From the NCBI RefSeq assembly GCF_010378095.1, contig NZ_WNJL01000023.1, positions 158,907-222,906 on the forward strand: a stretch of DNA of 64,000 bases, given 5' to 3'. The position numbers were made by a program, and so were the translations under genes. Shown piece after piece: positions 6,913 through 29,315 of this stretch; within the stretch, counting starts at the first letter, position 1, and the number at the start of each line of letters is the position of its first letter. The notes beneath the pieces are model-generated. The model worked only from the letters and a program-made list of their open reading frames with translations, was not told where the DNA came from and did not search any database. Origin of the DNA: Acidithiobacillus ferrianus. GTDB lineage: Bacteria > Pseudomonadota > Gammaproteobacteria > Acidithiobacillales > Acidithiobacillaceae.

Positions 6913-8736
6913 TCATGACCAATGCAAGGCGCGCATGAGGGCAAATTTTTTACGCTGATGGCCCTGCATGCGGGTCAGGATATCATCCAGGGTGTGCACG
7001 GCCTGGCCAATATACGGTCCTTTATTGAGCATCACGCACTCCGCCCGTTCATCCATGGCCGCATCGGTCAGTTCGGGACGTGAGATCATCCCCCTCTTGG
7101 CAAGGCTCTCCAAAACCTGGGTGGCCCAGACCACCGGCAGATGGGCGGCATCGGCAAGCCACAGGATTTCCTCCTGCACTTCAGTGAGCCGTTCTGGCCC
7201 CACCTCCATGGCGAGATCGCCGCGAGCCACCATGACGCCCAATGGTTGGCGACCGATGGCGGCGAGGAGGATTTCCGGTAGACGATGGAAGGCCTGGGCG
7301 GTTTCAATCTTGGCGATAATGCCGAGGTGCGTGGCCTGACGTTGACTGAGGGCATCACGCAGTGCGCGCATGTGCGCGGCGCTTTCCACAAAAGAAAAGC
7401 CGATCATGTCTACCAACGGAACGATCACGTCCAAATCCGCGCGGTCCTTGTCGCTCAAAGGGGGGAGGTCTAGGGGTAGTCCCGGGAAATTCAAGCCCCG
7501 GTCGGGGAAGAGGCGGTCCCCGCCGGGTTTGGCAACCGTGATCTGGAGCAGAGCGCCATCGGGAGACTGGGAAACCACTTCCGCACCGAACTTACCGTCA
7601 TCCATCCATACCTTCTGGCCCAGCGGTAGGCGTTCCACCAGGGAGGGGATCGTACAGGAAATACGGGCGGGCTGATGGTGATCCGGCTCTGCGGCCGCGC
7701 CGGGCAAGGCATCCCGGGTCAGCAAGAGGTGATCCCCTACGGCGAGCAGGATGGCGGTAGGTGTTTCGGGAATACCGGCGATGTGTCCATGACGGCGGCG
7801 GTGCTGGTCACTTTGCCACGGGGTCCCGTTCATGAGATAGACGCTTTGCGGGCAACTCAGGGTTACCCCCGCATCGGTCACGGATTCCACCTCCAGGCGG
7901 CGCTCTTTGCCTCGCGCATCCATGCAGCGCAATACTTCCCCGACTTCCGGAGGACGGTTGGTCTCGAGCGGCAGGAGTTGGCAATCCACCGGGGGCAACG
8001 GGCTTTGTGCATTCCCTTTCCACGCCGCCCGACAATGTGCTGGAAGAACCACTCGCCCCCGATGGTCCCGCATGGGCCGCAGGTGCAGGACGCCTTCCTC
8101 CGTGGCCAAAGGGCCGGTGCGAATCTTGTGGCCGGCCAGATCGGCGAGGATCTTGCATGGTCGCTCCGTCTCCTGCCGCGCAACGCGCAGCGTGCGCGCC
8201 ATTGCCGCCCATTCCACCGGGCTATCATGGGCGCAATTGATCCGGGCGATGTCCATGCCCGAAGTCAGCAGTTCTTTCATGAAGGCAAGATCGGTGGCCC
8301 GCTCGCCGGGCAAGGTCACCATGATACGGGTATTCCGCTTGCCGGGGGCTGGTCCCAGGAGTATCTCGGTATTGCTCCGGAGCGTGGACGCGTCCTCGTC
8401 ATCGCGGGTTGTCGAGGCATCTGAAGCGCGCCCCCGGGCTTTCCCGGTGGCTGCCCGGAGCACCGCGATGATGCGCTCTATGCTGTCCAAGACATGACTT
8501 TCACACCGCCCCAGTGAAGACAGGCCTTCCCGGGCCAATGCCTCCTGGAGGGGTCGAATATCGACACTGCGCAGGACCAGGTAATGGACCACGTTGCGCA
8601 CTCCGGGATGCAAGCGCAAACCGGGGTCCTGATGATCCAGGGCGGCGAGGCGCTTTTCGCTTTCGTCCAAGACGCGGTCGCGGAGGGCGAGTAAGGAATC
8701 CAGCAAGTCGTTCCATAGCGCGGCGCGTGTTGGCAT
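6913..8736 (-). CDS. Pyruvate kinase-like protein, long N-terminus, no C-domain
   Basis: 607 residues. The TIM-barrel core matches pyruvate kinase: RIMVTLPGERATD..ARINCAHD (normally TIGP..RxNFSHG), ILADLAGHKIRTG, VWMDDGKFGAEV, GLNFPGLPLDLPPLSDKD, IIAKIETAQA (catalytic Lys), VMVARGDLAMEVG, and ATQVLESLAKRGMISRPE..AECVMLNKGPY. A roughly 140-residue helical extension precedes the core, the B domain is enlarged, and the chain ends soon after the A domain, so the usual allosteric C-domain is missing. The start at 8736 has GGAGG six bases upstream; the frame stays open further but without a ribosome site. Catalytic activity is likely but not certain because several signature residues differ (NCAHD, LAGHK). 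Confidence 0.7.
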   Translation of the reverse strand: MPTRAALWNDLLDSLLALRDRVLDESEKRLAALDHQDPGLRLHPGVRNVVHYLVLRSVDIRPLQEALAREGLSSLGRCESHVLDSIERIIAVLRAATGKARGRASDASTTRDDEDASTLRSNTEILLGPAPGKRNTRIMVTLPGERATDLAFMKELLTSGMDIARINCAHDSPVEWAAMARTLRVARQETERPCKILADLAGHKIRTGPLATEEGVLHLRPMRDHRGRVVLPAHCRAAWKGNAQSPLPPVDCQLLPLETNRPPEVGEVLRCMDARGKERRLEVESVTDAGVTLSCPQSVYLMNGTPWQSDQHRRRHGHIAGIPETPTAILLAVGDHLLLTRDALPGAAAEPDHHQPARISCTIPSLVERLPLGQKVWMDDGKFGAEVVSQSPDGALLQITVAKPGGDRLFPDRGLNFPGLPLDLPPLSDKDRADLDVIVPLVDMIGFSFVESAAHMRALRDALSQRQATHLGIIAKIETAQAFHRLPEILLAAIGRQPLGVMVARGDLAMEVGPERLTEVQEEILWLADAAHLPVVWATQVLESLAKRGMISRPELTDAAMDERAECVMLNKGPYIGQAVHTLDDILTRMQGHQRKKFALMRALHWS

Positions 8737-8909
8737 AAATCCTCCGTGGCACGGAAGTATAAAGTATAAACGCGCTAGCCCAGCAATAGGCCGATACATG
8801 TTTCAACGACCGCAACCGTATCTTACGACTCCTAAGGTGGCTCTGTATAACCCCATTTGTCAGGATGGGTAGGTGGGCTGGGGACAGGAAGCGGGCATGT
8901 CTGGGCAGA

Positions 8910-9040
8910 TGATGTTTTGCGGAGGAACCGGGGTTGTCACGAATGCGCAAGGAGAAGAAGCGGGAAAGTTTTCTGCGAGAGATGGACCGGGTGGTTCCCT
9001 GGAAGCGTCTGGTGGACGTGATCGCACCCTGTTACCCCTT
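8910..9040 (+). pseudogene. IS5-type transposase N-terminal remnant
   Basis: A frame without its own start reads MRKEKKRESFLREMDRVV then PWKRLVDVIAPCYP, the conserved opening of IS5-group transposases (RERFL..MD.VVPW..L..LI.PHYP), and then degenerates. No terminal repeats or further transposase sequence were seen. The remnant sits in the gap between the pyruvate kinase-like gene and the bacteriocin-region operon. Confidence 0.5.
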
Positions 9041-9275
9041 CCTGCCGCGATGGTCCGCGCATCGCCCGGATTTTTGCCGTCCAGCAGCAGGAGCAACGCC
9101 TGCAAGGGGGGATTACCCCGTGGAAATAACGTACTGACCCAGGCTCACATTGTCATGTTTCCATCACCTGAGATTCATAAAAGTGCAATATTACCCTGAT
9201 ATAGTCCTCTGCGGTAGAGGGATTGTAAGCAGCCTGCCGACAATGACTGACCATAACAGAAAGGAAGGAACCGCA

Positions 9276-11141
9276 ATGCAACGCTCTAACGCGATCGCCC
9301 TGCAAGCAGCCTTGGCGCTATTTTTCTGTATCCCATTGGCCCAGGCCGCCAGCGAAGGGCTGCCGATTAAAATCCTCGCTTACGACGCCGTATACGACCT
9401 CCACCACAACGGGACCTATACCGGCACCATTCATGAGGTCGTCGTCCCGCTCAGCCACTATGGGGTACAGAAGTACGGACAGGCGCAAAAGCGGTTCTCC
9501 GCCAAGATGGAGCATGTGAGCGTCGCCGACGCCTACACCCTGAGCCCATCGGGAAAGCGATATCCGGTGCCTGAGAAGAAGATATTCACGCGTACATTGC
9601 CGGTCGCGCAAAACGCCCCGGAGTTCAGTGACGCCAAGACCACCACGGTGGTCTTTCCCCATGTGGCCGTGGGCGATGAACTGGTGGCGGACTGGAAAAT
9701 CGATTTTCTGAAACCTTATTTTCCGGATGCCATTTCTCTTTCCCATGCCGTGCCGTATTTTTTGCAGGCCGACAACGTGCATATCATCGTCCACGCGCCG
9801 ACCGCGATGGCCCTGCACTGGGCGGGGAGCGATGGTTATGCGGTCACCCACACGGTCGCCAACGGGGTGCAAACCATTACCGCGACCCTGCATCAACCCA
9901 CCGCGCAACCCCTTCAAATCAATGCGGTGGATTTTCATCAGGTTAGCCCGACCTTCATCCTGAGCACCTTCCCGAACTGGCAGGCGGTTGGCGATGCCTA
10001 CTGGAAATATGCCGAGCCTGCCGAAGTGGTGACCCCGGAGATCAAAGCGCTGGCAGATAAGATCACCGAAGGAAAGACCGGTGAGGCCACCGTGCAGGCC
10101 CTTTATGACTGGACCGTGCATCACATTCGTTGGGTGGGTATTGAAACCGGGCTGAGCGGTTACAAGCCTTATCCAGCCGCCACGACGCTCAGCCAGCGCT
10201 ATGGCGACTGCAAAGCCGCCGCCGCACTCCTGGTTGCCTTGCTGCACGCCAAAGGCATCGCTGCCCAACCGGTACTGTTAGGTGCAGGCAATGATTTTGA
10301 ATGGCAGAACGTGGCCAGCCTGCAGCAGATCAACCACGTCATCGTGCATGTACCCGCTTATCATCTTTATCTGGATGCGACCTCCGGGTACGCACCAGCG
10401 GGCACCATACCGCTCCCCGACGCCAATCATCCGGTGATTTTCGTCGGCGCCCACTCTGAAATCGCCAGAACGCCGGGGGATGCACCGGAAGCCAGTGGCA
10501 TGACCGGCATGGAGACGGTATCCATCACCAAAGACGGCAGTTTGAAAGCCCAGGAAACCCTTCATTTAACCGGATACGGAGCCTGGTTCTGGAAAGATCT
10601 GCTGGCGCGGATTCCGATGAGCGAGTATGGCGCGCTGCTTCATCATGTGATGGCGCAGGCCGGGCTAATGACGCAAAGCGTCCATCTGAAGGCATCACCT
10701 GCCCATACCCTGAGTGACCCTTTTATCCTGCAGTCCACTTGGAAAACCGCACCGGGCGTGCCATTGACGGCGATCAGCCGGGTTCATCTGCACTACGGAC
10801 TGAACACCGCCTCTCTGCGCAATCTGACCGCGCGCCTGACCAGTGCCACGGTGCACTACCCTGTTTTCATGCCCTATGGCCATGCACGGTGGAGCAGCAC
10901 CCTGGATTTGCCCAAAGGCTACTCTTGGGACGTCAAAGATGCAGACCATCAGGTCAAAAACAGTGCGGGTGTTTTTGATGAAAAAATACACCTGCTGGCC
11001 CCGGACAAGCTGCAAGTGACCAGTTCCATGCATCTGGATCATATGGTGTATAGCCCCGAAGCCTATCCCGATCTCTATAAGCTGGTCAGTGAAGCGATGG
11101 CTTTGGAGCAGGGGGGATTTGCAGTGAGGGCTACATCTTGA
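9276..11141 (+). CDS. DUF3857/transglutaminase-like exported protein
   Basis: 621 residues. A signal peptide occupies 1-24 (hydrophobic core, then PLAQAAS). An N-terminal DUF3857 beta-sandwich follows, then a transglutaminase-like fold with the catalytic triad visible as Cys312 (YGDCKAAAALLV), His354 (NHVIVHV) and Asp367 (YLDATSGYAP), and a C-terminal DUF3858-like region. The ATG at 9276 has AAGGAAGGA upstream and gives a good signal peptide; a longer frame to 9150 lacks both. The stop overlaps the TTG start of the HPr-kinase-like gene (TTGA), so the two are translationally coupled. Periplasmic protease or cross-linking activity is a family-level guess. Confidence 0.75.
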   Translation: MQRSNAIALQAALALFFCIPLAQAASEGLPIKILAYDAVYDLHHNGTYTGTIHEVVVPLSHYGVQKYGQAQKRFSAKMEHVSVADAYTLSPSGKRYPVPEKKIFTRTLPVAQNAPEFSDAKTTTVVFPHVAVGDELVADWKIDFLKPYFPDAISLSHAVPYFLQADNVHIIVHAPTAMALHWAGSDGYAVTHTVANGVQTITATLHQPTAQPLQINAVDFHQVSPTFILSTFPNWQAVGDAYWKYAEPAEVVTPEIKALADKITEGKTGEATVQALYDWTVHHIRWVGIETGLSGYKPYPAATTLSQRYGDCKAAAALLVALLHAKGIAAQPVLLGAGNDFEWQNVASLQQINHVIVHVPAYHLYLDATSGYAPAGTIPLPDANHPVIFVGAHSEIARTPGDAPEASGMTGMETVSITKDGSLKAQETLHLTGYGAWFWKDLLARIPMSEYGALLHHVMAQAGLMTQSVHLKASPAHTLSDPFILQSTWKTAPGVPLTAISRVHLHYGLNTASLRNLTARLTSATVHYPVFMPYGHARWSSTLDLPKGYSWDVKDADHQVKNSAGVFDEKIHLLAPDKLQVTSSMHLDHMVYSPEAYPDLYKLVSEAMALEQGGFAVRATS

Positions 11142-12055
11142 AAGAACAAGTACTACCATTACATCAGCCGAATTTCAACATTCCGATTGATAATATAACC
11201 CTTTCAGAGCGGGAGACATTAAGGGAGTGGCAGCCACCTGTAAAAGTGCCTAAAGACTATTTCTGGTGGGAGGTAAGAGGCGGCGAAATTTATATATCCA
11301 TGCCTAAACTAGGGCATTTCCACGTTAAGGGCGGCATACAGATAGACTATTCTCTAATAAATAATGCTGATCCTATAGCGATGCAAGCATTTATCAGTCG
11401 CGCTTTGTTTAGTTCGATTGTTCATCAAAGACACGAGATCCCAATTCGAGGCACCGCGATTGTTTCCAGGAATGAATCCGGCGCAACAATATTTAGTGGA
11501 AAGTCAGGTGTTGGCAAGTCTTCCATAAGTGCCATACTTTGTTTGAGGGGGTGGTCAATCCTTGCTGATGACATTTGTAGGATTTCAGTCCTTCCAGAAG
11601 CAAAATCTGAAATTAACTTATTTGTTCATCATGGATATACTGCTATTCAATTGACTGCTGACACATGCAATCGCCTGGAAATTGACACTACTGTGCTACG
11701 GCCAGCAGCAACCGAACGAGACAAGTTCTACTATACTCCTGAGCGAATGGCGCTCAAGCAGCGTGCACCAACTAGGATTATAATCTTGAATAGGCCAGCA
11801 TCAACCAGCCGATTGGAATGGGGAAGATGTTCGGACGAAGTCGCAATTGCGGCATTAGAGCCACAAATGTGTCGTATCGAGATAGGTAAGGCCATATTGG
11901 GTTCCGAAAAAATGATAGCCTTAGTTAAATCACTTATATCTACTGTACCCGTATTTGTTCTATCCATTCCGCAGGATGTTGGACCAGAGGACGTTGCCAT
12001 GGAAATCGAGAGAGCCGTATGCGATCAGCTTCTGGATGGTTTAGGCACCCGATGA
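11138..12055 (+). CDS. HPr kinase (HprK)-like P-loop kinase
   Basis: 305 residues. The P-loop FSGKSGVGKSSISAILCL and the following GWSILADDICRI match HPr kinase/phosphorylase and its relatives (GxSGxGKS, LADD). The classical HprK N-terminal domain and C-terminal HPr-binding signature are not evident, so this is an HprK-related kinase. Such kinases occur in peptide natural-product clusters, including lasso peptide clusters where one phosphorylates the precursor. Here the gene lies 170 bp before a double-glycine peptide gene and is coupled by TTGA to the transglutaminase-like gene. The gene is more AT-rich than its 5' neighbour. The substrate is unknown. Confidence 0.65.
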   Translation: MKEQVLPLHQPNFNIPIDNITLSERETLREWQPPVKVPKDYFWWEVRGGEIYISMPKLGHFHVKGGIQIDYSLINNADPIAMQAFISRALFSSIVHQRHEIPIRGTAIVSRNESGATIFSGKSGVGKSSISAILCLRGWSILADDICRISVLPEAKSEINLFVHHGYTAIQLTADTCNRLEIDTTVLRPAATERDKFYYTPERMALKQRAPTRIIILNRPASTSRLEWGRCSDEVAIAALEPQMCRIEIGKAILGSEKMIALVKSLISTVPVFVLSIPQDVGPEDVAMEIERAVCDQLLDGLGTR

Positions 12056-12222
12056 TGATAAAATTAGTCACAGGATATTTTATAAAACTATTGGATCCCA
12101 TGAAGATGGTTTATTACGAGTGTTTTTTAATTCTGTGAATCGCGCAATATTGGCGACAACAGGATGCTGGTGCGCAGGCAGCAATTTTTCCTGCGATTAA
12201 CTTAAGTCAAAAGGAGATGATT

Positions 12223-12444
12223 ATGCGCGAGTTGACGATAGAAGAGGTTAACGGTATTTCGGGTGGCCTTGCACCAGTTAGTTTCATACTGGGAGCTGGT
12301 TCCGCTATAATGGCCATTGGTGCCGCCGGGCTTGGTGCGGCGACAGCTATTATAGGTGGGCCGGAGTTGGTACTGGGCGCTGCTGTATACGGGGTTGGAT
12401 CCGCCGTTTTTGGTTTTGGAGCCGCCATGTTCGCTGATTATTAA
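12223..12444 (+). CDS. Double-glycine-leader bacteriocin precursor (class II microcin-like)
   Basis: 73 residues. The leader MRELTIEEVNGISGG has the double-glycine consensus: Leu-12, Glu-8, Val-7, Ile-4, Gly-2, Gly-1. The 58-residue core LAPVSFILGAGSAI..AMFADY is Gly/Ala-rich, strongly hydrophobic, has several GxxxG or GxxG steps, no Cys and no Lys/Arg, and a net acidic charge. The ATG at 12223 is six bases after AAGGAG; an ATG at 12217 lies too close to that site. Cleavage after GG and export by the C39 ABC transporter encoded downstream is expected, with membrane insertion into target cells by analogy to microcin V. Antibacterial action is inferred. Confidence 0.8.
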   Translation: MRELTIEEVNGISGGLAPVSFILGAGSAIMAIGAAGLGAATAIIGGPELVLGAAVYGVGSAVFGFGAAMFADY

Positions 12445-12495
12445 GGCACACAGACACAATATTGCCCTACAATTAGGGAGGTATTGCGGTCTGTG

Positions 12496-12615
12496 AATGC
12501 GTGCTTATCCGCTTGGCTCTCATACAGTTACTATCTGTGATTAATCACTATGTTCCAGAGCATAGGTGTTGTGCGATGGGAATTGTTTTGGGAGATAACC
12601 GGATAAGCACGCATT
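12496..12615. repeat. 120-bp segment bounded by perfect 16-bp inverted repeats
   Basis: AATGCGTGCTTATCCG at 12496-12511 and its exact complement CGGATAAGCACGCATT at 12600-12615 enclose 88 bp with no gene. The structure lies between the peptide gene and the next membrane protein gene. It could be a miniature inverted-repeat element or, when transcribed, a long-range RNA stem that separates expression of the two genes. Short TTAAT sequences lie near the right end, but no clear target duplication was found. Confidence 0.6.
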
Positions 12616-12650
12616 AATCATTAATGTGTTAGATCAGGAACGGGGGACAC

Positions 12651-13025
12651 ATGGATAAGGAATGCATTCAAATAGATACCATATACGGTTCCGCATATAT
12701 TGCGGTAAGAAAGAGATATTATCGGTTCTTTAATTTATTGCCATTTATATTATTTATGTCTTTGTCAAGCATAGTTATGCACATGCTTGACAGCCCTAGG
12801 TATTTAAAAATATATAGTTATTCAACTATTTATTTATCATTTTTCGCGTCTTCAATAATGACACTTATTATATGTGACGCGTTTTTTTTTGCTACAAAAG
12901 CCTTAAAAGTCAATAGCTGCGATGCCACACTACTTAAAAGGAGGGTAAATTGGAGGTACTTGGAGCTTATGTTTATTGCTGTTTGCTCCCTAGTCTACGT
13001 GCTAACTCAAATTATATATAATTAA
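12651..13025 (+). CDS. Small membrane protein, candidate immunity protein
   Basis: 124 residues, about 30% GC by eye, much more AT-rich than the flanking region. Three hydrophobic segments are visible: about 27-46 (FFNLLPFILFMSLSSIVM), 58-80 (YSTIYLSFFASSIMTLIICD) and 103-122 (LELMFIAVCSLVYVLTQII). The N-terminus and a loop near 83-100 are Lys/Arg-rich. No family is recognised. Its location directly after the bacteriocin peptide, small size and membrane nature fit an immunity protein. The ATG at 12651 follows GGGGGA. Confidence 0.5.
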   Translation: MDKECIQIDTIYGSAYIAVRKRYYRFFNLLPFILFMSLSSIVMHMLDSPRYLKIYSYSTIYLSFFASSIMTLIICDAFFFATKALKVNSCDATLLKRRVNWRYLELMFIAVCSLVYVLTQIIYN

Positions 13026-13178
13026 ATAGTGCATGTTGCACAGTCCGAAAACCATTGCCAAAATTAGTTTTTGTTGGTTGTCTGGGAAAACCGCTAAATT
13101 TTCACAATCCCCGGTGGATTTTGCTAAACAACCCGCCGATATACTGCCGTGCGGCCACCTATAATCAAGGAGAGCAGT

Positions 13179-13721
13179 ATGGAAAAAGTGCAGATATCTC
13201 GACTCAAACCGATTTGGAGCGTCAATAGCATCTATAGCGTACTAAAAACTGCCGCTTGTCCAATAGCCGTGTTAGGTGGATTATTCTTGTTAGTTGTTAT
13301 TACAGAAGTGGTTACTGGCCATCTCCATGACTTGCTGTTAGCAGTTGTTTCGCAATATTCTGCTGTTCTTTTTGTTTTGGTAATTTTCGTGCTTTTTGTA
13401 TATGCTCCAGTGGCTGTATTCATGACATTCCCGGTTAAAATGACAATTGGTACTGAATTGCCAAAGGTTTATTGGGGTGACCATGTGGATGCGATATTGG
13501 CACAACTTGGATTATACGAAAAAGAATTAACCACGGGAACGATCCGGGTGTTTCATCCAAAAGCAAAAAGTGGGCTAAAGATGTGTACATACGGGCAAGT
13601 GGTTTTTGACAACGCAGAGGGTGCCTCAATAGCGGTGACAGGTCCATTATTGTTGCTATATCGGCTGCGACGTCATTTGCTTTTTAGGAATGATCATGGT
13701 GACGTTCCAAAAGAACGGTAA
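13179..13721 (+). CDS. Unknown membrane protein in bacteriocin cluster
   Basis: 180 residues with two strong membrane segments: about 28-50 (CPIAVLGGLFLLVVITEVV) and 60-88 (YSAVLFVLVIFVLFVYAPVAVF). A cytoplasmic C-terminal part of about 90 residues carries basic and aromatic residues (RVFHPKAKSGLKM, LYRLRRHLLFRNDH). The start at 13179 has AAGGAG seven bases upstream. No family recognised. It may be a second immunity protein or an accessory to export; position between peptide and exporter genes is the only functional hint. Confidence 0.5.
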   Translation: MEKVQISRLKPIWSVNSIYSVLKTAACPIAVLGGLFLLVVITEVVTGHLHDLLLAVVSQYSAVLFVLVIFVLFVYAPVAVFMTFPVKMTIGTELPKVYWGDHVDAILAQLGLYEKELTTGTIRVFHPKAKSGLKMCTYGQVVFDNAEGASIAVTGPLLLLYRLRRHLLFRNDHGDVPKER

Positions 13722-13902
13722 TCCATTTTCATGCCTGTCAAGCCGGTTGAATAACACGGTTACCATATACGCTCTGATCTCCCACAAGTGACCATCGGAA
13801 GATACGTGAAGGTTAGCCATGGCAAGTTATTGGTAAACTTTGGAGAAATAAATGTTAACAATTGGTAGAAGATTGGTTATTATGGTGTTTTTTATATTGT
13901 TG

Positions 13903-13921
13903 TCATAATATCATATTATGA
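13903..13921. promoter_or_regulatory. Perfect palindrome over the start of the HlyD-like gene
   Basis: TCATAATAT-C-ATATTATGA, 9-bp arms around one base, covers the proposed ATG (13918-13920). A 19-bp AT-rich palindrome here is compatible with an operator or a hairpin controlling translation of the exporter operon. If translation starts at the next ATG (13933), the palindrome would lie just upstream of it. Confidence 0.4.
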
Positions 13922-15306
13922 TACGGCCCTCTATGACAAAAGAGCAATCTAAATTCGTGAAAAACAGCATGCCAACACGTGACGATCAAACATTATTTCG
14001 CCCAGATGCGATCCAAAGCTCCGGGGCATCCTGGCTCGGTCCTATCCGCCTGGGTTCGCCCGTCCATCATCATGTCTACGCGGTCATAGCGCTATTTGTC
14101 ACGCTGGCGATCATCCTGCTCCTTATTTTCGGTCATTACACGAGACACCTGGCCGTCACCGGCATACTGGTCCCGTCACAAGGCCTGTTAACGATATCCG
14201 CCCCTATTTCCGGCACGGTTGAAAAAGTGTTGGTGCATTCTGGCGAAAAGGTTCGCGCCGGTGCCCCATTGCTGGAAATCGCCAGCAACCCGGACAATCC
14301 TTCCGTGGGATTAGTGGCGACCATCATCGAACAATCCATCAATGCGGAAAAACGGGTTCTGAGCGGCAGCCTTTCCGCGGCGCGTTCTGTTTCCCGCATG
14401 CAGCAGATGGCCTTGCGGGACAAACTGCAACTTTTGCAGGCCCAACTGGTGGAAACGAGCGCCGAGATCGCTATCCAGCATCAGGATATTGCCAGCACCG
14501 AGAAGGTGTTGCGGGAATTTATGAGCGTGCGGGGCAGAGGATTGGTTTCGGATCCCGAACTCCAGCAGCAGCATCTCACGGTCTATAGCGCCGAGACGCA
14601 ACTGGAAGGCCTTGAACGCCAGCGGACGGAACTTGCGCAGAGCATCAGTAGCGCGACCCATCAACTGGGGGAGTTGCCATTGACGTCCTTGAACCAGGAA
14701 AACACCATTCGCAGCAAACTGGAAACGCTTCGTCAGGAACTGGCCAAAACCGCCGGTGGCAATGTCCTCCTCGTACGCGCCCCCGCCAACGGCATTGTTT
14801 CCGCCATGACCGTCAACCCCGGCCAGGCCATCGCCGCCGGACAACCCGTCTTATCCGTCATGCCGGCCGGGGATCCCCTGCGCGCCCAGTTGCTTGTGTC
14901 GAGCCAAGCCATCGGCTTCGTGACCGTGGGGAGGACAGTTGCATTGCATTATGCGGCCTTTCCCTACCGGGATTTTGGCACTTTCCATGGCACCGTGCGC
15001 AGCATTTCTGGTAGTGCACTAACGCCCGAGGAAATAACCACCCTCACCGGTGCCCATTCCACGGTCCCGCTCTATCGGGTCATGGTCCAATTGCACCGTA
15101 CCACCGTGGAAGTCCATAGCCATCAAAAATCGCTGCGTGCGGGCATGCAACTCCATGCAGAAGTCACCCTCAATCGACTGCGCCTTATTCAATGGGTCTT
15201 TGAACCCCTGTATGGTCTCGGTCACGATCTCTTTCCGAATTCGCGGCATGCGGATCATTCCGCAGCAGCACCTTCGCCGATCATTGCCCAGCCATCCCTG
15301 CCATGA
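13918..15306 (+). CDS. HlyD-family adaptor of bacteriocin exporter (CvaA-like)
   Basis: 462 residues. A cytoplasmic N-terminus is followed by one membrane anchor (about 53-73) and a periplasmic part: split biotinyl/lipoyl-like halves (ISAPISGTVEKVLVHSGEKVRAG near 95; VRAPANGIVSAMTVNPGQAIAAG near 290) around a long alpha-helical hairpin with Gln/Glu-rich heptads, then a beta-barrel. This architecture bridges the inner-membrane ABC exporter to a TolC channel, as CvaA does for microcin V. The stop overlaps the start of the ABC gene by four bases. The ATG at 13918 lacks a good ribosome site and the ATG at 13933 is an alternative. Confidence 0.85.
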   Translation: MIRPSMTKEQSKFVKNSMPTRDDQTLFRPDAIQSSGASWLGPIRLGSPVHHHVYAVIALFVTLAIILLLIFGHYTRHLAVTGILVPSQGLLTISAPISGTVEKVLVHSGEKVRAGAPLLEIASNPDNPSVGLVATIIEQSINAEKRVLSGSLSAARSVSRMQQMALRDKLQLLQAQLVETSAEIAIQHQDIASTEKVLREFMSVRGRGLVSDPELQQQHLTVYSAETQLEGLERQRTELAQSISSATHQLGELPLTSLNQENTIRSKLETLRQELAKTAGGNVLLVRAPANGIVSAMTVNPGQAIAAGQPVLSVMPAGDPLRAQLLVSSQAIGFVTVGRTVALHYAAFPYRDFGTFHGTVRSISGSALTPEEITTLTGAHSTVPLYRVMVQLHRTTVEVHSHQKSLRAGMQLHAEVTLNRLRLIQWVFEPLYGLGHDLFPNSRHADHSAAAPSPIIAQPSLP

Positions 15307-17474
15307 AATTTTCCACTACTCTTCTCGATGGCCTGCGGTTTGGCTTTGCTCGCCGCGTCCCGGTGATCCTACAGTCCGAAGCGTCGGAGTGCGGTCTCGC
15401 CTGTCTGGCCATGATCGCCGGTTACCATGGCTTACAGATCGACCTCTTCACCCTACGGCGTCAGCACGCGATTTCCCTGAAGGGCGCAACCCTGGCACAA
15501 CTCCTCCAGATCGCCGGGAACCTGCACCTCGACGGCCGTCCCTTGCGCCTGAAAATTGCCGATCTCTCTCGCCTGATCTTGCCCTGTATTCTCCACTGGG
15601 AGATGAAGCATTTTGTTGTCCTGATCAAAGTCGGTACTCAGGGAATTACGATTCACGATCCCGCCTGCGGTGTGCGGCGCGTACCCTGGTCGGAAGTATC
15701 CGCTTCGTTTACCGGCGTGGCGCTGGAACTCCTGCCCGCCGCAAATTTCGAGCCCGCGCGCCATAAGCCGGCAATCTCTCTGCGCGCCTTGACCGGCCCC
15801 ATCCAGGGCTTGCGTGGGGCGCTGCTCCGGATTTTCCTGCTCGCCCTGGTATTGGAGGTGTTGGGTGTCCTCGGTCCGTTCTACATGCAATGGATCATTG
15901 ATGAGGTCCTGGTGGTCAACGACCACTCCTTGTTGACCCTGCTGGGCATCGCCTATCTCTTCGTCACGGCCTTTTCGACACTCTTCTTCGCGCTGCGCTC
16001 GTGGGTCGTGATCCACATCAATGCCACCCTGGGCATCCAGTGGGCAACGAACGTGTTTTCTCATCTTTTGCGCTTGCCTCTGGATTTTTTCGAGAAACGT
16101 CATATTGGGGACGTGGTGTCGCGTTACGGCGCCATCCAGAACATCCGTCGCACCATCACCACCAATCTCGTGTCCGCCGTGCTCGATGGCATCATGGCTG
16201 TCGCCGTCCTCATCGTCATCGCCATCTACAGTTTTCGATTAACGGCCATCGTTGTGGGGGTATTCGTACTGTACCTGCTCCTGCGCCAAGTCGCCTACCT
16301 TCCTCTGCGCGCGGTGACCGAACGGCATATCTTCGCTGCGGCTAAACAACAGACCTACTTATTGGAAGCCATCCGCGGCGTCCAAACCCTCAAGCTGTTC
16401 AACCTGGAGGAAGACCGCACCGCCCGCTATGCCAATCTGATCGTCGAGACGACCAACCAGGATGTTCGTGTACAGCAGCTTTCCGCGCTGTTTGGGTCAG
16501 CCCAGAAATTGCTGGGTGGCGTAGGGCACATCGTCATCATCTGGCTCGCCGCCCTGATGGTCATGAAAAATCAGTTCACCATCGGCATGCTCGTCGCCTA
16601 CGCGACTTTTGCCAGCCAGTTCCTGAGTCGGGGCGACGGTCTCGTCAACGCCTGGATAGACTTCAAAATGCTCCGTCTCTATGGTGAAAGACTGGCGGAT
16701 ATTGCCCTGACCCCGCCCGAGGCGCATCTCCTGCCGGTTTATGAGGGATCGGACCCGGAGCCCAACCTGGAACTGCGGCAGGTCAGCTTTCGCTATACCA
16801 CAGAGGATCCATGGATCCTGAAAGGATGCCAACTCGCCGTGAAAACGGGCCAGTCGGTGGCCATTGTCGGCCCATCCGGTTGCGGCAAGACCACCTTGGT
16901 GAAATTGCTTCTGGGACTGATCGCCCCGGAAGAGGGAGATGTCCGCATGGGCGGCATTGATATTCACAAGCTCGGGTTACGCCGCTACCGTGCCATGGTG
17001 GCGGCGGTCATGCAATCGGATCAATTGTTCGCGGGTAGTATTGCCGACAATATCGCACTCGCATCTCCCGAAGCCCACCCCAGTGAAATCGAACAGGCCG
17101 CCCGGATGGCCGGGATCCACGAGCAGATCGCCGCCATGCCCATGGGCTACCGCACCCTGGTCGGAGATATGGGATCGGCCCTCTCCGGCGGGGAGAAACA
17201 ACGTATCATTCTGGCACGCGCCTTGTTCAAAAAACCCAGGGTATTGATCCTCGATGAGGCCACCAGCCACTTGGATGTGGTGCGGGAAAGATACATCAAC
17301 GACACCGTCAGTCACCTGAGTATCACCCGCATCGTCATCGCCCATCGTCCCGAGACGATTTTGCAGTGTCAGCTCATCTATGGTCTCGCGGGCGGAACCT
17401 TGCATGCAATCACGCCAGAGCAGTTCAAGGAAAGTGTGGCGGTCATTCAATCAACACCCTCCGCTGTCTCATGA
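15303..17474 (+). CDS. C39-peptidase ABC exporter for double-glycine peptides (CvaB-like)
   Basis: 723 residues. The N-terminal C39 cysteine peptidase shows Cys30 (SEASECGLACLAMI), His103 (MKHFVVLIKV) and Asp119 (TIHDPACG), an intact triad with the helper Gln24. Six membrane helices follow (about 165-440), then an ATPase with Walker A VGPSGCGKTTLV, signature LSGGEKQRIILARAL, Walker B VLILDEATSHLD and the H-loop IAHRPE. Such exporters cut the leader after Gly-Gly and translocate the core. The only double-glycine substrate seen nearby is the 73-residue peptide 3 kb upstream. It overlaps the HlyD-like gene. Confidence 0.9.
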   Translation: MKFSTTLLDGLRFGFARRVPVILQSEASECGLACLAMIAGYHGLQIDLFTLRRQHAISLKGATLAQLLQIAGNLHLDGRPLRLKIADLSRLILPCILHWEMKHFVVLIKVGTQGITIHDPACGVRRVPWSEVSASFTGVALELLPAANFEPARHKPAISLRALTGPIQGLRGALLRIFLLALVLEVLGVLGPFYMQWIIDEVLVVNDHSLLTLLGIAYLFVTAFSTLFFALRSWVVIHINATLGIQWATNVFSHLLRLPLDFFEKRHIGDVVSRYGAIQNIRRTITTNLVSAVLDGIMAVAVLIVIAIYSFRLTAIVVGVFVLYLLLRQVAYLPLRAVTERHIFAAAKQQTYLLEAIRGVQTLKLFNLEEDRTARYANLIVETTNQDVRVQQLSALFGSAQKLLGGVGHIVIIWLAALMVMKNQFTIGMLVAYATFASQFLSRGDGLVNAWIDFKMLRLYGERLADIALTPPEAHLLPVYEGSDPEPNLELRQVSFRYTTEDPWILKGCQLAVKTGQSVAIVGPSGCGKTTLVKLLLGLIAPEEGDVRMGGIDIHKLGLRRYRAMVAAVMQSDQLFAGSIADNIALASPEAHPSEIEQAARMAGIHEQIAAMPMGYRTLVGDMGSALSGGEKQRIILARALFKKPRVLILDEATSHLDVVRERYINDTVSHLSITRIVIAHRPETILQCQLIYGLAGGTLHAITPEQFKESVAVIQSTPSAVS

Positions 17475-17511
17475 AAAAGCAAAGTTCCAGATTTGGGGTC
17501 GCAGGTACCCC

Positions 17512-19011
17512 ATGTGTTCGGCAATATTGAACGTGGCGATATTGAACGTTTTGCGCTTGCCCCTGGTTCGCGGGCCTACCCCAAAGGGGTTTTCTTCCTG
17601 CCTCGTATTGTTCCTGGTTTTGTGTCTGTCCTGGTCGGATCCGGGGTTGGCCAGAGATTTTCTGTATCCGGCACATGGCTTTTTTTCTGACCCCTGGGGC
17701 ACACGGGAAGGGTTGCCAACCCTCGGCGCTTACACCACCGGGCGTCACGGACTCCCCGCACCAGTCTTGCCTGGAACCCCGGGATCGAAAGTACTCGCGC
17801 GTCTGCGCTCCTTGCCCGCGCTCACCAACTGGGCGTTGCTGCACAACCCGCAAACCGCTTCGGCTTGGGCTGGTCTGGGGGCACAAGCGGCCGCCCTGGG
17901 TATCGCCAAAGGGCTGTGGCTACCGACCGTGAGCGTCGGGATCGGCGGTCAGCGCAGCGGCGACATACTGAGCCGCGGCTTCAACCCGCCGCTCGCCAAC
18001 ACCATGAACGCCACGCTCAGCCTCAACGAAGTATTGTATGACTTCGGGCAACGTGCCGCCGCCATCAGCAAAGCAGAATCGGCTGTACTCGTCGCACGCT
18101 ACGAGGCCAACGCAGCAATCCAGCAGGTGGCCCTCACGGTTGCCAACGCCTACTACGCCCTCGCTGGAGCGGAAGCCCGAGTGCGCGTATACCGCCAAGG
18201 CGTAAAGGAGGCGCAAACCATCTATGCAAACACGCGCCTGCAATACCGCGCGCATCTCAAACCCATCACGGATATGTATCAGGCCCAGACGGAACGGTCT
18301 CAGGCACGGGAGCAGTTGGTCATCGCGCAGGGTACCGAGCAATCCGACCGGGGTGCGCTGGCCCAGGCCGCAGGCTTGCCGGTGGCCATCCACCTTCCCA
18401 TCGGTACGTTACAATCGCCGCGGCAAAGATTGTCCATCGGCATCCGCCGCTGGTTACGGTGCGCGGTCAGGAAAAATCCTTCAATTCTCAGCGATCTCGC
18501 CACAATCCGGGAAGCGCGCCAAGCCATTTTCCAGGCGGAGGCACAAGGGCTGCCCTCCATTTCCCTGGTGGGAAACCTCGGGCAAAATCAGTATCAAAGC
18601 CAGCAACCCAACGTGAAAAGCTACAGTATTGGATTACAACTCAATATCCCTTTCGATACCAATTTTACTACTGAATACCAAGTACAGGAGGATCGTGCGC
18701 TCTATCACCAGGCGCACGCGCAGGCCCGGCAGGAAACGGACACGATCCTGTTGGAGGTCTGGCAGGCTTATGCCGGGCTGAAAAGCGCCATGGGCGCCTA
18801 CGTGAACGCGCAGCAGCAGGTAATCAGCGCGAAAAACGCCCTGTCCGGCATCCGTACCGAGTACCGTATCGGTCTGGCGAACATCTTGGAGTTAATCACG
18901 GCGGAACAGAATCTTATTCAGGCACGCACCACCCGTGCGTCGGAACTCGCCAATTATTATGAATATCGGGCGGATCTATACCGATACGCGGGATTGATAC
19001 CGGGCCTTTGA
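17512..19011 (+). CDS. TolC-family outer membrane channel of bacteriocin exporter
   Basis: 499 residues. After a signal peptide (hydrophobic CLVLFLVLCLSW, then GLARDF) the chain has the two TolC repeats, each with long coiled helices (SLNEVLYDFGQRAAAISKAE; LQLNIPFDTNFTTEYQVQED) and Ala/Gln-rich heptads, ending LYRYAGLIPGL. The gene follows the ABC gene by 37 bp and completes a dedicated three-part secretion machine. The ATG at 17512 is chosen because it leaves a signal peptide; a longer frame overlaps the ABC gene without a ribosome site. A chromosomal tolC elsewhere may also serve. Confidence 0.85.
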   Translation: MCSAILNVAILNVLRLPLVRGPTPKGFSSCLVLFLVLCLSWSDPGLARDFLYPAHGFFSDPWGTREGLPTLGAYTTGRHGLPAPVLPGTPGSKVLARLRSLPALTNWALLHNPQTASAWAGLGAQAAALGIAKGLWLPTVSVGIGGQRSGDILSRGFNPPLANTMNATLSLNEVLYDFGQRAAAISKAESAVLVARYEANAAIQQVALTVANAYYALAGAEARVRVYRQGVKEAQTIYANTRLQYRAHLKPITDMYQAQTERSQAREQLVIAQGTEQSDRGALAQAAGLPVAIHLPIGTLQSPRQRLSIGIRRWLRCAVRKNPSILSDLATIREARQAIFQAEAQGLPSISLVGNLGQNQYQSQQPNVKSYSIGLQLNIPFDTNFTTEYQVQEDRALYHQAHAQARQETDTILLEVWQAYAGLKSAMGAYVNAQQQVISAKNALSGIRTEYRIGLANILELITAEQNLIQARTTRASELANYYEYRADLYRYAGLIPGL

Positions 19012-22601: not shown

Positions 22602-23651
22602 TCAGTGCTCATGCAAATGGTGCATGTCCGGGGCGTGGGTATGGTCATGAGTTACCGGTTCGTGCTCATGGGGGTGGCGATGGCGAACACCGGGCGCCAC
22701 GGGATGAGGGTGTGTGTGCTGATGGTGTGCGTCATGCACATGGACATGATCGTGTTCCATGCGCGTATGGGTATGTTCATGTGCGTGGCTTTCGGTGAGA
22801 TGCATCCAGATGCCCCAACCCATCAGCGCGCCAGCGATCAGTAGGAGCGGAGTGACCGGAGCGCCGAGCATCACGCTGAGTACGGCACCGACAAAAGGAG
22901 CGCTGGAAAAGTATGCCCCTGTCCGTGCACTGCCGAGATGACGCAGGCCGACCACAAAAAGGGCAAGACTGACGCCATAGGCGAAAAATCCGAGCAGCAT
23001 CGCCGCCGCCACATCCGGAAGGGCAGGCAGGTGGTCGCCGAGCAGCAGGGCCAGCCCGAGATTGACGCTGCCCGCCACCCAACCCTTGTTGGCGGCGATC
23101 CAACTGGTATCGGTCAGGGAGACCTTGCGGGTCAGATTGTTGTCCACTCCCCAGGAAAAGCAGGCACCGATGATGGCGGCGGCGGACCAGAGGTGGTCGA
23201 AATGCATCTGTCCCGGCCAACTGAGGAGCACCATCCCCAGCACAATGGCTACCATTCCCCAGGCAATGCGCCGGTCGAAACTCTCTTTGAATACCCACCA
23301 CGCCAGTAGCGTCGTAAACACGGTCTCCGCATTTAAGAGCAAGGAGGCCGTCGAAGCGGCGGCACCCTGCAGACCGATCATGAACAGCACCGGCGCCAGG
23401 ATTCCACCCGCCAGCACGGAAGCCCCAAACCAGAACGCATCCCGGCGCGACAGCCGTACCCGTTCGGCGCGGCGCAGCCAGCGGTAGAGGGTCAGCCCCA
23501 GACCGGAGCCCAGATAGAGCAGACCCGCCAACATCCAGGGACTGACCGATGCCAGCAGGGCTTTGGCCAGCGGCGTACTCGCCCCAAAGAGCAACGCGGA
23601 CAGCAGGGCGGCCTGGATGCCGGGGTGGCGTAGGGCGCGGAGAAAGGACAT
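22602..23651 (-). CDS. DMT/EamA transporter with His-rich C-terminal tail
   Basis: 349 residues. About ten membrane helices in two EamA repeats (LFGASTPLAKALLASVSP; GACFSWGVDNNLTRKVS; GLRHLGSARTGAYFSSAPFVGAVLS). The last about 65 residues hold some 23 His, mainly as HxH and HDH clusters (HVHVHDAHHQHTHPH). EamA proteins export metabolites or metal ions. The tail resembles those of metal-ion carriers and suggests Ni, Co or Zn binding. No regulatory site was recognised. The gene is in the same direction as the RND efflux operon, 110 bp downstream of it. Confidence 0.8.
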   Translation of the reverse strand: MSFLRALRHPGIQAALLSALLFGASTPLAKALLASVSPWMLAGLLYLGSGLGLTLYRWLRRAERVRLSRRDAFWFGASVLAGGILAPVLFMIGLQGAAASTASLLLNAETVFTTLLAWWVFKESFDRRIAWGMVAIVLGMVLLSWPGQMHFDHLWSAAAIIGACFSWGVDNNLTRKVSLTDTSWIAANKGWVAGSVNLGLALLLGDHLPALPDVAAAMLLGFFAYGVSLALFVVGLRHLGSARTGAYFSSAPFVGAVLSVMLGAPVTPLLLIAGALMGWGIWMHLTESHAHEHTHTRMEHDHVHVHDAHHQHTHPHPVAPGVRHRHPHEHEPVTHDHTHAPDMHHLHEH

Positions 23652-23761
23652 GGGCCTCCTGTAGGCGAGAAAGGCTGCCGATCAGCCGCCATGATACAAC
23701 AAGCGGATCACTATGGCAGGCGCAAAAAGCACCGCCGCCGGGAAAGGGGGTGTCCGGGGTA

Positions 23762-26700
23762 TTACCGTGGGCGCGCCACCTTCGCGCTCAAGGCGCTATA
23801 CATTACCGGCGCCAGCCATAAAGACATGAACACGGACAACACCAGACCGCCCATGACCGCTACCGCGAGGGGCTTGAGCAGGTCGGTGCCGTGGCCGATA
23901 CCGATGGCCAGCGGCAGAAAGCCGAAGACATCGGCGAGCATGGTCATCAGGATGGGACGCAGGCGCTGGCGGGCGGCAAGGGCGACCACGGCGGGGCGCG
24001 GCAGCGGGCCACCGAGTTGCCGGGCGCGCGCAAAAATCAGAATCACATTGTTGACGGCAATGGCAAAGACCAGCAGCACGCCGAGGAAAGCGGTGCTATC
24101 GAGGTCGATGCCGAGCAACAGCAGCGCCAGCAGTGCCCCCGGTGCCGCCAGCGCAATCGCCAGCAGGGCGGAAATGGCGGCCCGCTGGCTACTGAACTGA
24201 AAACCGAGCAGGATCAGGAGCAAGGCCAGCGCCCCGCCGAGAATCAGCGCCATCTGCTGAAAGCTCTGCGACTGCTGGCGATAATAGCCGCCCAGCAAGG
24301 TCGTCACGTTGGTCGGCAGATGCAGGTTCGCTACCACCACACGTGCTTTAGCGGCGGCCTGCGCCAGTCCCTCACCGGGCTTCGGCTGCAGCCAGACATA
24401 GGCATCGGGCACCAGATTTTGATGGGTCACGAAGGGTATCGCGCCCTGCACATGCACGCCGGCGATGCTGGCCAGCGGTGTAAAACTCCCGTCCGGCAGG
24501 TGAATGGGAAGGCTGTCCATCTCGCGGGGGGTGAAATCGTGGCCGGCGAGGCTGACGCGAATCGGCAGGATCTGCTCGCCGTGCAGGAGGAAGCCCGCCT
24601 GCCGTCCCCAGAAGCGCGCTTTGATTTGGCCCGCCAGCACCGGTGGAGTGATGCCGTAGATGGCGGCCAGTGGCGATGGCGTGATCTCCAGTTCGGGACC
24701 GGCGGAAGGTGACTTGAAGTTCACGGACTCAAAGGCATGGCTCTGGCGCAATGCCGCCGCCAGACGCGCTCCCTGCGTGCGCAAGGTGGCGGAATCCGAG
24801 CCGAAGAGATAAACCACTAGCGGCGCGTGGGCACCCGAGAGATTGCCCAGGCGTACAATCATTGTTTGATGGAGTGTCAAGGAGAGCAGATTGGGCGCCA
24901 TCTGACGGAACTGTGCCCGCAGCGTGTGCATCACCGTCTCGGTGCTCTGCGCGTGATCGGGCTTGAGGACGATGGCGATAGCCCCCTTGTTGGCCGGCGC
25001 ATGGAGGAACTGGAAGCCGCGCCCGACCATCAGCGATGCCCGCTCCACATTGGGATTCTCCAGCGCCACCCGCATGAAATCCCGCCCCACGCGGGTGGTT
25101 TCCGCCACGCTGCTGCCGACCGGGGTACGGAAGGGCACCGAAATCACGCCCTCGTCCCAATGGGGCAGGAAGGCGGTGGGCAAGGTGGTCAGCGCCCGCC
25201 ACCCCGCGACCGCGAGGAGCAAGACCACCGGAATGGCCCACCACGGGCGGCGCATGCCGAAAATCAGCCAACGGCTGAAATGTCGGCGTAACCAGCGTTC
25301 AGCGCCATTTCGCCGGTTCTGCTGCGGGCGCCCGGCGAGCCAGGCGGCCAGCACCGGCGTCACCAGCAGGGCAACGATTTGCGAAGTCAGCAGCGCAATG
25401 ACGATGGCCAATGCCATATGCCTGAACAAGAGCCCCAGCGTGCCGGACAAAAAGATCAGCGGCAGAAAGATCATGCAGGAGGTGAGGGTGGCCAGGGTCA
25501 TTAGTGGCAGAATTTCGGCAGCGCGGCGCAAGGCCTGCCGTCGCCGCGCCGTGCGGTCACCGTGCAGACCATGGATCCCGCGTTCGATCACCACGATGGC
25601 ATGATCCACCAAGGCACCAATCGCCGCTGTCAGGCCGCCGAGCGTCATGATATTGAGTCCGTAGCCCAACGCATGCAGCACCAGAAAAGTAGCCGCCAGG
25701 GCCAGCGGGACGACCACCAGGGTCGCCAGCGCTCCATCGAAACGGCCGAGAAAGGCGAAGACCACCAGCCAGGCGATCAGGCTGCCGAGCCCGAGGGCGA
25801 TCCAGACATCGCGCAGGCTGCCACTGATCAGATGGCTCAAGTCATAGATCGGCACGAGTTGCACGCCGGGTGGCAGGTGCGCCCGCAATGCCGCCAGCCG
25901 GTGCTGTACGGCACGGGCGACATCCACATCGTTGGCTCTCGATTGCGATAGCACGTCGACGATCAGGGCATGACGGTAGCCGGGGACGGCGGCATCGGTG
26001 AGCAAGGGCGGCGGACCGACGCGCACCTGTCCCAGCGCGCCCAGCGCCAGGGGGGCACGGACGCCTCCGGCATTGGCCGGGCCGAGAGGCAGGGTCAGGG
26101 TGGCCAGATGCGCCGTGTCCACCGGCCGCGGCGTGGTGGCGACGATAAATTGCTGGTGATAGGCGTGCAGGATGCCGGAGAAAAAAGGTCCTTGGGCGCG
26201 GCGGAGGGTGTCGATCACCTGCTGTGCCGTCAGGTGATATTGCGCCAGGCGCACCGGGTTCAGATCGATACGCACCTGCGGCCAGCCGCGGCCGGTGCCC
26301 TGCACCTGATAGACGCCGGGAATCGCCAGCAGGGCGGGGCGAACCTGGAAGGCGAAAGTCGGCATCATCGCCGAGCTGTCCTGTTGATTGGAGACCAGCG
26401 CATACTCGGCGAAAGGGTAGGTGTAGGGTGCCATGCGCGTCACCCGCATCTGCGCGCCGACAGGCAAGCGAACCTGTGAGAGACGCGCCTGCAGCATGAG
26501 ATAAGCGGTCTGCGGATTGACGCCGGGATTGAAGTAGACATTGAGCTTGGTCAGTCCGTTGCCGGTCTGCGAGCGCACCAGCCGGACGCCCGGCTGGCCC
26601 TTGGCCAATGCCTCCAGCGGACGGGTGATCTCGACTTCCATGAACTTGACCGGCAGGCTGCCGTCGTTGACCAGCACCGCCACGCGTGGGAAATCGACAT

Positions 26701-26818: not shown

Positions 26819-26819
26819 G

Positions 26820-29137: not shown

Positions 29138-29315
29138 GCACTGACTTTTATGGTTAAAAACGCGGAATCGTTTCGGTGCTTTTCTGGGGGTTTCCGATAA
29201 TCAGCCACTACCATTTTGTCTCCGCACAGGATAAATACCCCCATAACTGCTGCGACCATCGGCGCAGTATCGCAAAAGCAGAAAACCGGAAGATGACCAT
29301 AGCCTGACGAATCCG

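Follow-up and report, generated by a model that had tools for sequence, protein, structure and literature searches.

The window, a 64,000-nucleotide stretch of Acidithiobacillus ferrianus DNA (located at C16:158907-222906 in a genome of 3.17 Mb and 90 contigs), carries a peptide and export locus which, judged from its genes, is probably a class II microcin-like bacteriocin system. An excerpt of PMC10233263 names five parts for class II microcins: a double-glycine pre-peptide, an immunity gene, a C39 exporter, a membrane-fusion protein and an outer-membrane channel. We found the double-glycine pre-peptide, a C39 exporter with its catalytic residues, a membrane-fusion protein and a TolC-type channel. 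If the candidate immunity genes are counted, all five parts are present, which supports the microcin V-type gene set proposed in the original prediction, made earlier on this DNA. That prediction had placed the system at 9276-19011. The genes of the system do lie there, but the start of this span falls in a flanking DUF3857 gene, and an HPr-kinase-like gene at 11138-12055 had gone unmentioned. Coordinates are those of the window unless a locus is named, and all genes of the window locus lie on the forward strand.

Precursor peptide and export machinery

The precursor gene runs from an ATG at 12223 to a stop at 12444 and encodes 73 residues, a 15-residue leader (12223-12267) and a 58-residue core (12268-12441). 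The leader reads MRELTIEEVNGISGG and the core LAPVSF...FADY, and the Shine-Dalgarno sequence AAAAGGAG (12209-12216) lies 6 nt 5' of the start. The core is 47% Gly+Ala, with a grand average of hydropathy (GRAVY) of 1.44, no Cys, three Ser and a net charge of -2. We used a strict leader scan (ATG, Shine-Dalgarno, hydrophobic residues at -12/-7/-4 and G[G/A]), in which this peptide was the sole match in the 64 kb, while it gave none in 40 random sequences of 64 kb with matched trinucleotide composition. A looser scan gave three matches in the window and, in 20 random windows, a mean of 0.3 and a maximum of 3. Therefore, the strictness of the motif matters. With its strong Shine-Dalgarno sequence and strict leader match, the predicted 73-residue frame looks like a genuine gene, and the double-glycine-leader peptide was confirmed.

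A search of 5.8 billion proteins (342 candidates scored) returned one match at E <= 0.01, P0001 (E 1.1e-3). Among 29 genomes of the family, the single-sequence search matched two, the peptide's own genome and G012 (E 0.0044). The peptide profile A2 matched four of them at E <= 0.1; two of these, G006 and G012, had themselves contributed rows to the profile, and the match in G007 is a fragment. The window peptide stayed under the curated cutoffs of both TIGR03949, the lactobin A/cerein 7B model (15.3 bits, cutoff 21.5), and the MccV family PF17508 (12 bits, E 0.32, cutoff 27 bits). The C-terminal motif of class IIb (siderophore) microcins, Ser/Gly-rich according to an excerpt of PMC10233263, is missing, since the core ends in VFGFGAAMFADY and its last 12 residues contain no Ser. 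The prediction took this peptide as the substrate of the exporter, and the peptide profile found no other convincing double-glycine substrate in the same genome, the second match (E 0.08) lying in a 238-residue frame.

The C39-peptidase ATP-binding cassette (ABC) exporter (15303-17477) carries the Pfam C39, ABC membrane and ABC ATPase domains. In the alignment with 8vp3 (E 3e-100), a solved structure of an ABC-type bacteriocin transporter, Gln24 (15372-15374), Cys30 (15390-15392), His103 (15609-15611) and Asp119 (15657-15659) fall on identical residues, at positions which we take to be catalytic in transporters of the 8vp3 type. The Pfam match and this alignment bear out the predicted Cys30-His103-Asp119 exporter and extend it by Gln24. 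It is the single full-length match in its own genome. The other long matches there, at 26-29% identity, are missing the N-terminal 150 residues, and a 241-residue frame contains one weak C39-like stretch (E 1.7e-4). The predicted adaptor and channel were likewise recovered by Pfam. The HlyD-type membrane-fusion protein (13918-15306) matches HlyD_3 (E 6.6e-17), and also TIGR01843 (E 6.5e-39, under the TIGR01843 cutoff), and the 499-residue TolC-like outer-membrane channel (17512-19011), linked to the locus, matches OEP (E 2.6e-49). The ratio of nonsynonymous to synonymous substitution rates (dN/dS) between the window and G006 is 0.17 for the exporter, 0.17 for OEP, 0.15 for HlyD and 0.19 for DUF3857. 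The transporter genes (0.15-0.17) are under purifying selection.

Exchange of the peptide cassette among relatives

Exporter relatives at E <= 1e-60 occur in eight of the 29 family genomes. Three are close, namely the window's own, G006 (same genus, 95% identity) and G012 (67%, cut by a contig end), and the other five are 29-31% identical. In all three carriers the close exporter comes with a double-glycine peptide, in line with the original prediction, although the peptides differ strongly from one another.

The blastn blocks between the window and G006 (L058) cover 9146-11196 (95.4%), 12499-13836 (86.2%) and 13908-19003 (95.1%), with no alignment over 11196-12499. The blocks of G007 (L087) also stop at 11196 and restart at 12499 (93.2% and 97.3%). 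The block edges and the guanine-plus-cytosine (GC) content delimit a variable cassette (11196-12498, GC 45%), and GC is 39-46% across 11.2-13.9 kb compared to about 58% in the surroundings. In the window the cassette consists of most of the kinase-like gene and the peptide gene. In G006 this 1.3-kb segment is replaced by another double-glycine peptide and a 202- or 195-residue membrane protein, and only the first codons of the kinase-like gene remain in G006 and G007. The G006 peptide has the leader MRVLTDEEIYDVSGG at L058 7014, or a longer leader starting at 6957.

A third peptide is encoded in G012 (L057, a 5,079-bp contig) at 2185-2403. Its gene overlaps that of a 149-residue membrane protein, if the latter starts with TTG. 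HlyD (57%) and the exporter (67%) come directly after. This peptide passes the curated TIGR03949 bacteriocin model with 25.6 bits against the cutoff of 21.5. An acid-mine metagenome-assembled genome (MAG; L011, exporter 57%) has, by eye, a Gly/Ala-rich GA-leader peptide and a 162-residue membrane protein 3' of the exporter. A second double-glycine peptide, with a 35-residue core and two Cys, also adjoins the related exporter there (L011 4438-4587). The exchange of peptide and membrane protein on one exporter fits rivalry acting on a putative toxin/immunity cassette.

A 120-bp element (12496-12615, no strand assigned) at the right edge of the cassette resembles a miniature inverted-repeat transposable element (MITE), with terminal inverted repeats of about 24 bp (CGTGCTTATCCGG.../...CCGGATAAGCACG). 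It forms a strong hairpin, the RNA fold of 12445-12650 reaching -82.6 kcal/mol (z -6.9). The element is found at the same site in the window, G006 and G007, and related copies or ends occur elsewhere in G006, G011, G012, G004, G001, G014 and G010. We considered a regulatory RNA and set it aside, since the hairpin had no Rfam match at the gathering score and the copies elsewhere make a MITE-like element likelier.

The left flank is formed by a gene for a 621-residue DUF3857/transglutaminase-like protein (9276-11141; Pfam PF12969 and PF01841). It has relatives in 11 of the 29 family genomes at E <= 1e-20, with a match of at least 66% in six of them. Since three of these six (G010, G001 and G016) have no close exporter, the gene is probably a conserved flank outside the peptide system. 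At the DUF3857 site of these three genomes no exporter was seen, the G001 contig stopping 1,040 bases past the gene.

Candidate immunity genes and loss of the system in a relative

Between the peptide and the exporter we confirmed the two predicted small membrane proteins, one of 124 residues (12651-13025, about three transmembrane segments by hydropathy) and one of 180 residues (13179-13721, about two transmembrane segments and a soluble tail). Their genes start 206 nt and 734 nt past the peptide stop, respectively. The 124-residue protein is the leading candidate for immunity to the window peptide and the 180-residue protein the second candidate.

The 124-residue frame is intact in the window. 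In G006 and G007, which have another peptide or its remnants, a poly-T run splits it. The run is T9 in the window, T7 in G006 (L058 8211-8580) and T8 in G007 (L087), and the long frame is closed in the latter two. The length difference could be decay or slippage-based switching. Pfam, TIGR and PADLOC scans gave no family match for the 124-residue protein, and PADLOC gave none for five proteins. Its dN/dS is 0.39 against G006 (residues 1-79) and 0.82, on few changes, against G007.

The 180-residue protein has dN/dS of 0.40 against G006 and 0.31 against G007. It is present in three of the 29 family genomes (own, G006 and G007), and its relatives form 12 protein clusters at E <= 0.01, of which four name an organism and three of these name Acidithiobacillus. 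One scan of viral contigs found no relative. Homology to the 162-residue membrane protein of L011 was not supported (hhalign probability 0.1%), and a structure model from 11 close sequences was set aside (predicted local distance difference test, pLDDT, 41.7).

G007 has lost the producing part of the locus. It keeps DUF3857 (93%), a 195-residue membrane protein (82% to that of G006) and the 180-residue protein (98%), both membrane frames being intact. A deletion of 4,771 bp relative to the window ends the HlyD match at about residue 70 and joins it to OEP residue 453 at a shared CTGGCGA. Compared to G006, the peptide gene has also lost about 211 bp, reaching from the ribosome site into the core, and a search at E <= 1e-60 gave no exporter elsewhere in G007. 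The loss of the putative toxin and exporter while the membrane genes stay fits a toxin/immunity history. This retention, together with the split of the 124-residue frame in G006 and G007, is suggestive of an immunity role. The 202/195-residue membrane protein has a dN/dS of 0.32 between G006 and G007.

The decay seen in G007 could mean that the window locus, too, is silent or being lost, with a recently functional exporter and a peptide that is no longer made. The region 11900-14000 shows no promoter excess (7 found, 6.7 expected), and the MITE-like element is inserted between the peptide and the membrane genes. However, all frames of the set are open and the transporter genes are under the purifying selection described above. 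The insertion is old because it is common to G006 and G007. We consider a silent or decaying locus very unlikely.

At the same site past DUF3857, G010 and G016 encode a 189-residue protein with multiple transmembrane segments, and G001 has a 147-residue frame (L088 5246-5815, L090 5254-5820 and L089 from 7636). No peptide or exporter was seen beside this gene in the three genomes. The 189-residue protein is a possible orphan immunity gene product; orphan immunity appears in a paper on E. coli bacteriocins (PMC12546727). Between G010 and G016 its dN/dS is 0.79, so it is weakly constrained if it is an immunity gene. A possible homology between the 202-residue protein of G006 and the 189-residue protein of G010 and G016 (and the 147-residue frame of G001) draws on blastp (E 6e-10, with a very small database and no composition correction) and hhalign (72%). 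A two-row profile search of the genomes for this relation gave no match in G010, G016 or G001 at E <= 0.01.

The HPr-kinase-like gene

The kinase-like gene (11138-12055, 305 residues) has a TTG start overlapping the DUF3857 stop. TIGR04352 and TIGR00679 match it weakly, far under their cutoffs, and its profile A4 matches the HPr kinase structures 1jb1 (E 4.7e-10) and 1ko7 (E 2.5e-9). It was found in one of the 29 family genomes. Of 398 Pseudomonadota genomes, 29 had relatives by profile, the window's own genome being one of them. A model built by AlphaFold2 from three sequences (mean pLDDT 43.6) was set aside. We also rejected Thalassotalea L015 as a relative; its long frame with a P-loop reads like a DNA polymerase III tau subunit.

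A possible role for this protein would be phosphorylation of the peptide or its precursor. A recruited lasso-type HPr-kinase homologue would modify the peptide at Ser, Thr or Tyr ahead of its export by the C39 transporter, joining lasso-type tailoring to class II export. This is compatible with a microcin, and we consider it improbable. The peptide gene and most of the kinase gene share one exchanged segment. The ATP-site residues (Walker A, D144-D145, K196 and R246) are retained, and a 97% homologue exists. Four loci of kinase relatives have neighbours of the B2-type transglutaminase-like, Asn synthase, nucleotidyltransferase and sulfotransferase kinds (Pfam on 10 proteins: Transglut_core3 in L100 and L101, Asn_synthase in L100 and L104, NTP_transf_5 in L097, sulfotransferases in L097 and L101), and we read them as lasso-type neighbourhoods. 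The modification would perhaps keep the peptide inactive inside the producer or tune its action at low pH, and the exporter would take whichever peptide cassette a lineage acquires.

Several observations speak against phosphorylation. Known lasso kinases act on, and need, a C-terminal Ser (excerpt of PMC8498205), whereas the window core ends in Tyr. The kinase and its 97% homologue have Arg where all 13 other alignment rows have His. In G006, which has its own peptide, the kinase gene is reduced to a stub. At none of the 29 loci of kinase relatives (L097-L125, about 1.5 kb on each side) was a C39 exporter seen, and five of the loci have weak ABC matches that lie outside the C39 domain. No lasso B or C gene was found by Pfam among the nine proteins of 6913-19011. 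Moreover, the overlap with DUF3857 may place the kinase in a DUF3857 operon. The kinase may therefore modify a different residue, have a regulatory function, or be an older member of the DUF3857 operon. If it does act on the peptide, two peptide-maturation logics which we have otherwise met apart would be joined.

Related exporters and known systems

The window locus and microcin V (CvaC, Cvi, CvaA, CvaB and TolC) both have a C39 exporter, an HlyD-type adaptor, a TolC-type channel, a Gly-rich hydrophobic core and a small membrane protein nearby. The CvaC leader also has 15 residues and a double glycine with the same spacing. Unlike microcin V, the window peptide stays under the MccV Pfam cutoff and its locus has a linked channel gene, a kinase-like gene in the cassette, two membrane proteins that are not adjacent to the peptide, and an acidophile host. 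A further difference is that the G006 locus is chromosomal, since it lies on a contig of 2,982,397 bases. The class IIb bacteriocins lactobin A/cerein 7B share with it the leader and the Gly/Ala-rich core, and the sister peptide of G012 exceeds their cutoff, while the window peptide does not and export here must cross an outer membrane. The lasso HPr-kinase homologues (paeninodin kinase, ThcoK and SyanK, in an excerpt of PMC8498205) are similar in that a protein of about 300 residues with Walker A and Asp-Asp lies in a peptide locus; they differ in the lasso B and C genes, the terminal Ser and the His discussed above.

A scan of genome contigs gave 36 related exporter loci, 15 of which have a convincing double-glycine peptide nearby (by eye), of several kinds. 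On plasmids, the 25 matches listed include exporter relatives with up to 53% identity in Burkholderia and 49% in Pantoea. The Burkholderia ubonensis plasmid NZ_CP013369 has an exporter of 52% identity, and two "hypothetical" genes directly 3' of it (L137 8243-8557 and 8676-8933) encode GA-leader microcin-like peptides with the leaders MRELTMMEMEHVAGA and MRELNRTETANIAGA. This set and that of the Pantoea vagans plasmid NC_014561 are alike to ours in the exporter (about 49-52%) and the HlyD and TolC genes, and unlike it in their fimbrial neighbours and the order TolC-HlyD-exporter.

Some of the related exporters lie beside tandem short double-glycine peptides (L013 10755-11382, L016 10470-11302, L036 4580-6105 and L040 4762-6108), in a Pseudoduganella, a Burkholderiaceae MAG and two Shewanella. 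Their cores are Cys-rich or contain Ser/Thr/Cys, and these sets may be undescribed families of secreted peptides. In Pseudoalteromonas aurantia (L022 4003-4481), two neighbouring Gly/Ala-rich GA-leader peptides beside the exporter resemble a two-peptide bacteriocin. Elsewhere in the window, 22602-30758 (GC 60-69%) is probably a metal-efflux cluster, judged from translations that read as a drug/metabolite transporter (DMT)-type permease with a His-rich tail, a resistance-nodulation-division (RND) pump with adaptor and outer-membrane channel, and a sensor kinase.

Discussion

The gene set, the catalytic residues, the cassette exchange and the loss of toxin and exporter with the membrane genes kept are established by sequence alone. 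From these we infer processing, secretion, killing, immunity and the target. In the mechanism we propose, the 73-residue precursor would be made with its 15-residue double-glycine leader, which the C39 domain of the exporter would recognise and cut. The 58-residue hydrophobic Gly/Ala-rich peptide would leave through HlyD and the linked outer-membrane channel and probably insert into the inner membrane of related cells. Protection of the producer would come from one of the small membrane proteins or from both, the 124-residue one first and the 180-residue one second. The exporter would be a stable platform, and toxin and protection a module that lineages exchange or lose.

A number of points weigh against this reading. 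Antibacterial action, and action at low pH, are predictions. The one database relative of the peptide, P0001, is weak, and the peptide passes no curated model. No membrane protein is encoded within the window cassette itself, and because of this the choice of the cognate immunity gene is a guess. The 124-residue gene is weakly constrained against G007 (dN/dS 0.82, few changes), and the retention of the membrane genes is known from G007, a single genome. With a peptide at 15 of the 36 loci, the exporter subfamily may not be exclusive to microcins, and in the one Pantoea record, where the exporter region lies near fimbrial genes, the double-glycine scan found no peptide.

These fimbrial genes, which adjoin related exporters in one Burkholderia and one Pantoea record, bring up a different function, in which the peptide is a secreted signal or acts at a surface and the membrane proteins serve as receptors or accessory factors. 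Signalling and biofilm functions of some double-glycine peptides, in both Gram-negatives and Gram-positives, are described in an excerpt of PMC10233263, which also counts against a bacteriocin. However, no sensor kinase or regulator was present among the nine proteins scanned in 6913-19011, and the G012 peptide matches a bacteriocin model. The swap of peptide and membrane protein, and the loss of the peptide with kept membrane genes, fit toxin and immunity better. A signalling role therefore seems unlikely to us, and we favour the class II microcin-like system.

The original prediction took such systems to be known mainly from enteric bacteria and one in an acidophilic chemolithotroph to be new. 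Among the titles listed for open-licence literature on bacteriocins and microcins of Acidithiobacillus or acidophiles, none describes this system, although a description elsewhere is possible. Double-glycine peptides outside enterics had been predicted earlier (Xylella, in an excerpt of PMC10233263). In the excerpts available, an A. ferrooxidans genome paper gives a subsystem count, 'bacteriocins (7)', with no detail (PMC6736930), and an acid-mine cluster survey treats clusters of ribosomally synthesized and post-translationally modified peptides (RiPPs) in bulk (PMC9734747). An earlier microcin survey covers, by its excerpt, Enterobacterales, Vibrionaceae and Pasteurellaceae (PMC9746304), and, according to the excerpted 2022 review, bioinformatic hints had not yet led to any confirmed unique microcin outside Enterobacteriaceae (PMC10233263). 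In 2026, 17 class II microcins were confirmed in Serratia marcescens, as an excerpt of PMC13101503 reports. Serratia marcescens is still an enteric relative.

In a chemolithotroph genus, the locus provides a testable example for which nature supplies allele pairs. Different peptides are combined with one exporter type in the window, G006 and G012, and G007 represents a natural non-producer whose membrane-protein genes are intact. If our reading is true, peptide warfare would reach low-pH mineral habitats and bioleaching cultures, and the family would show an exporter platform that stays fixed while toxin/immunity cassettes turn over.

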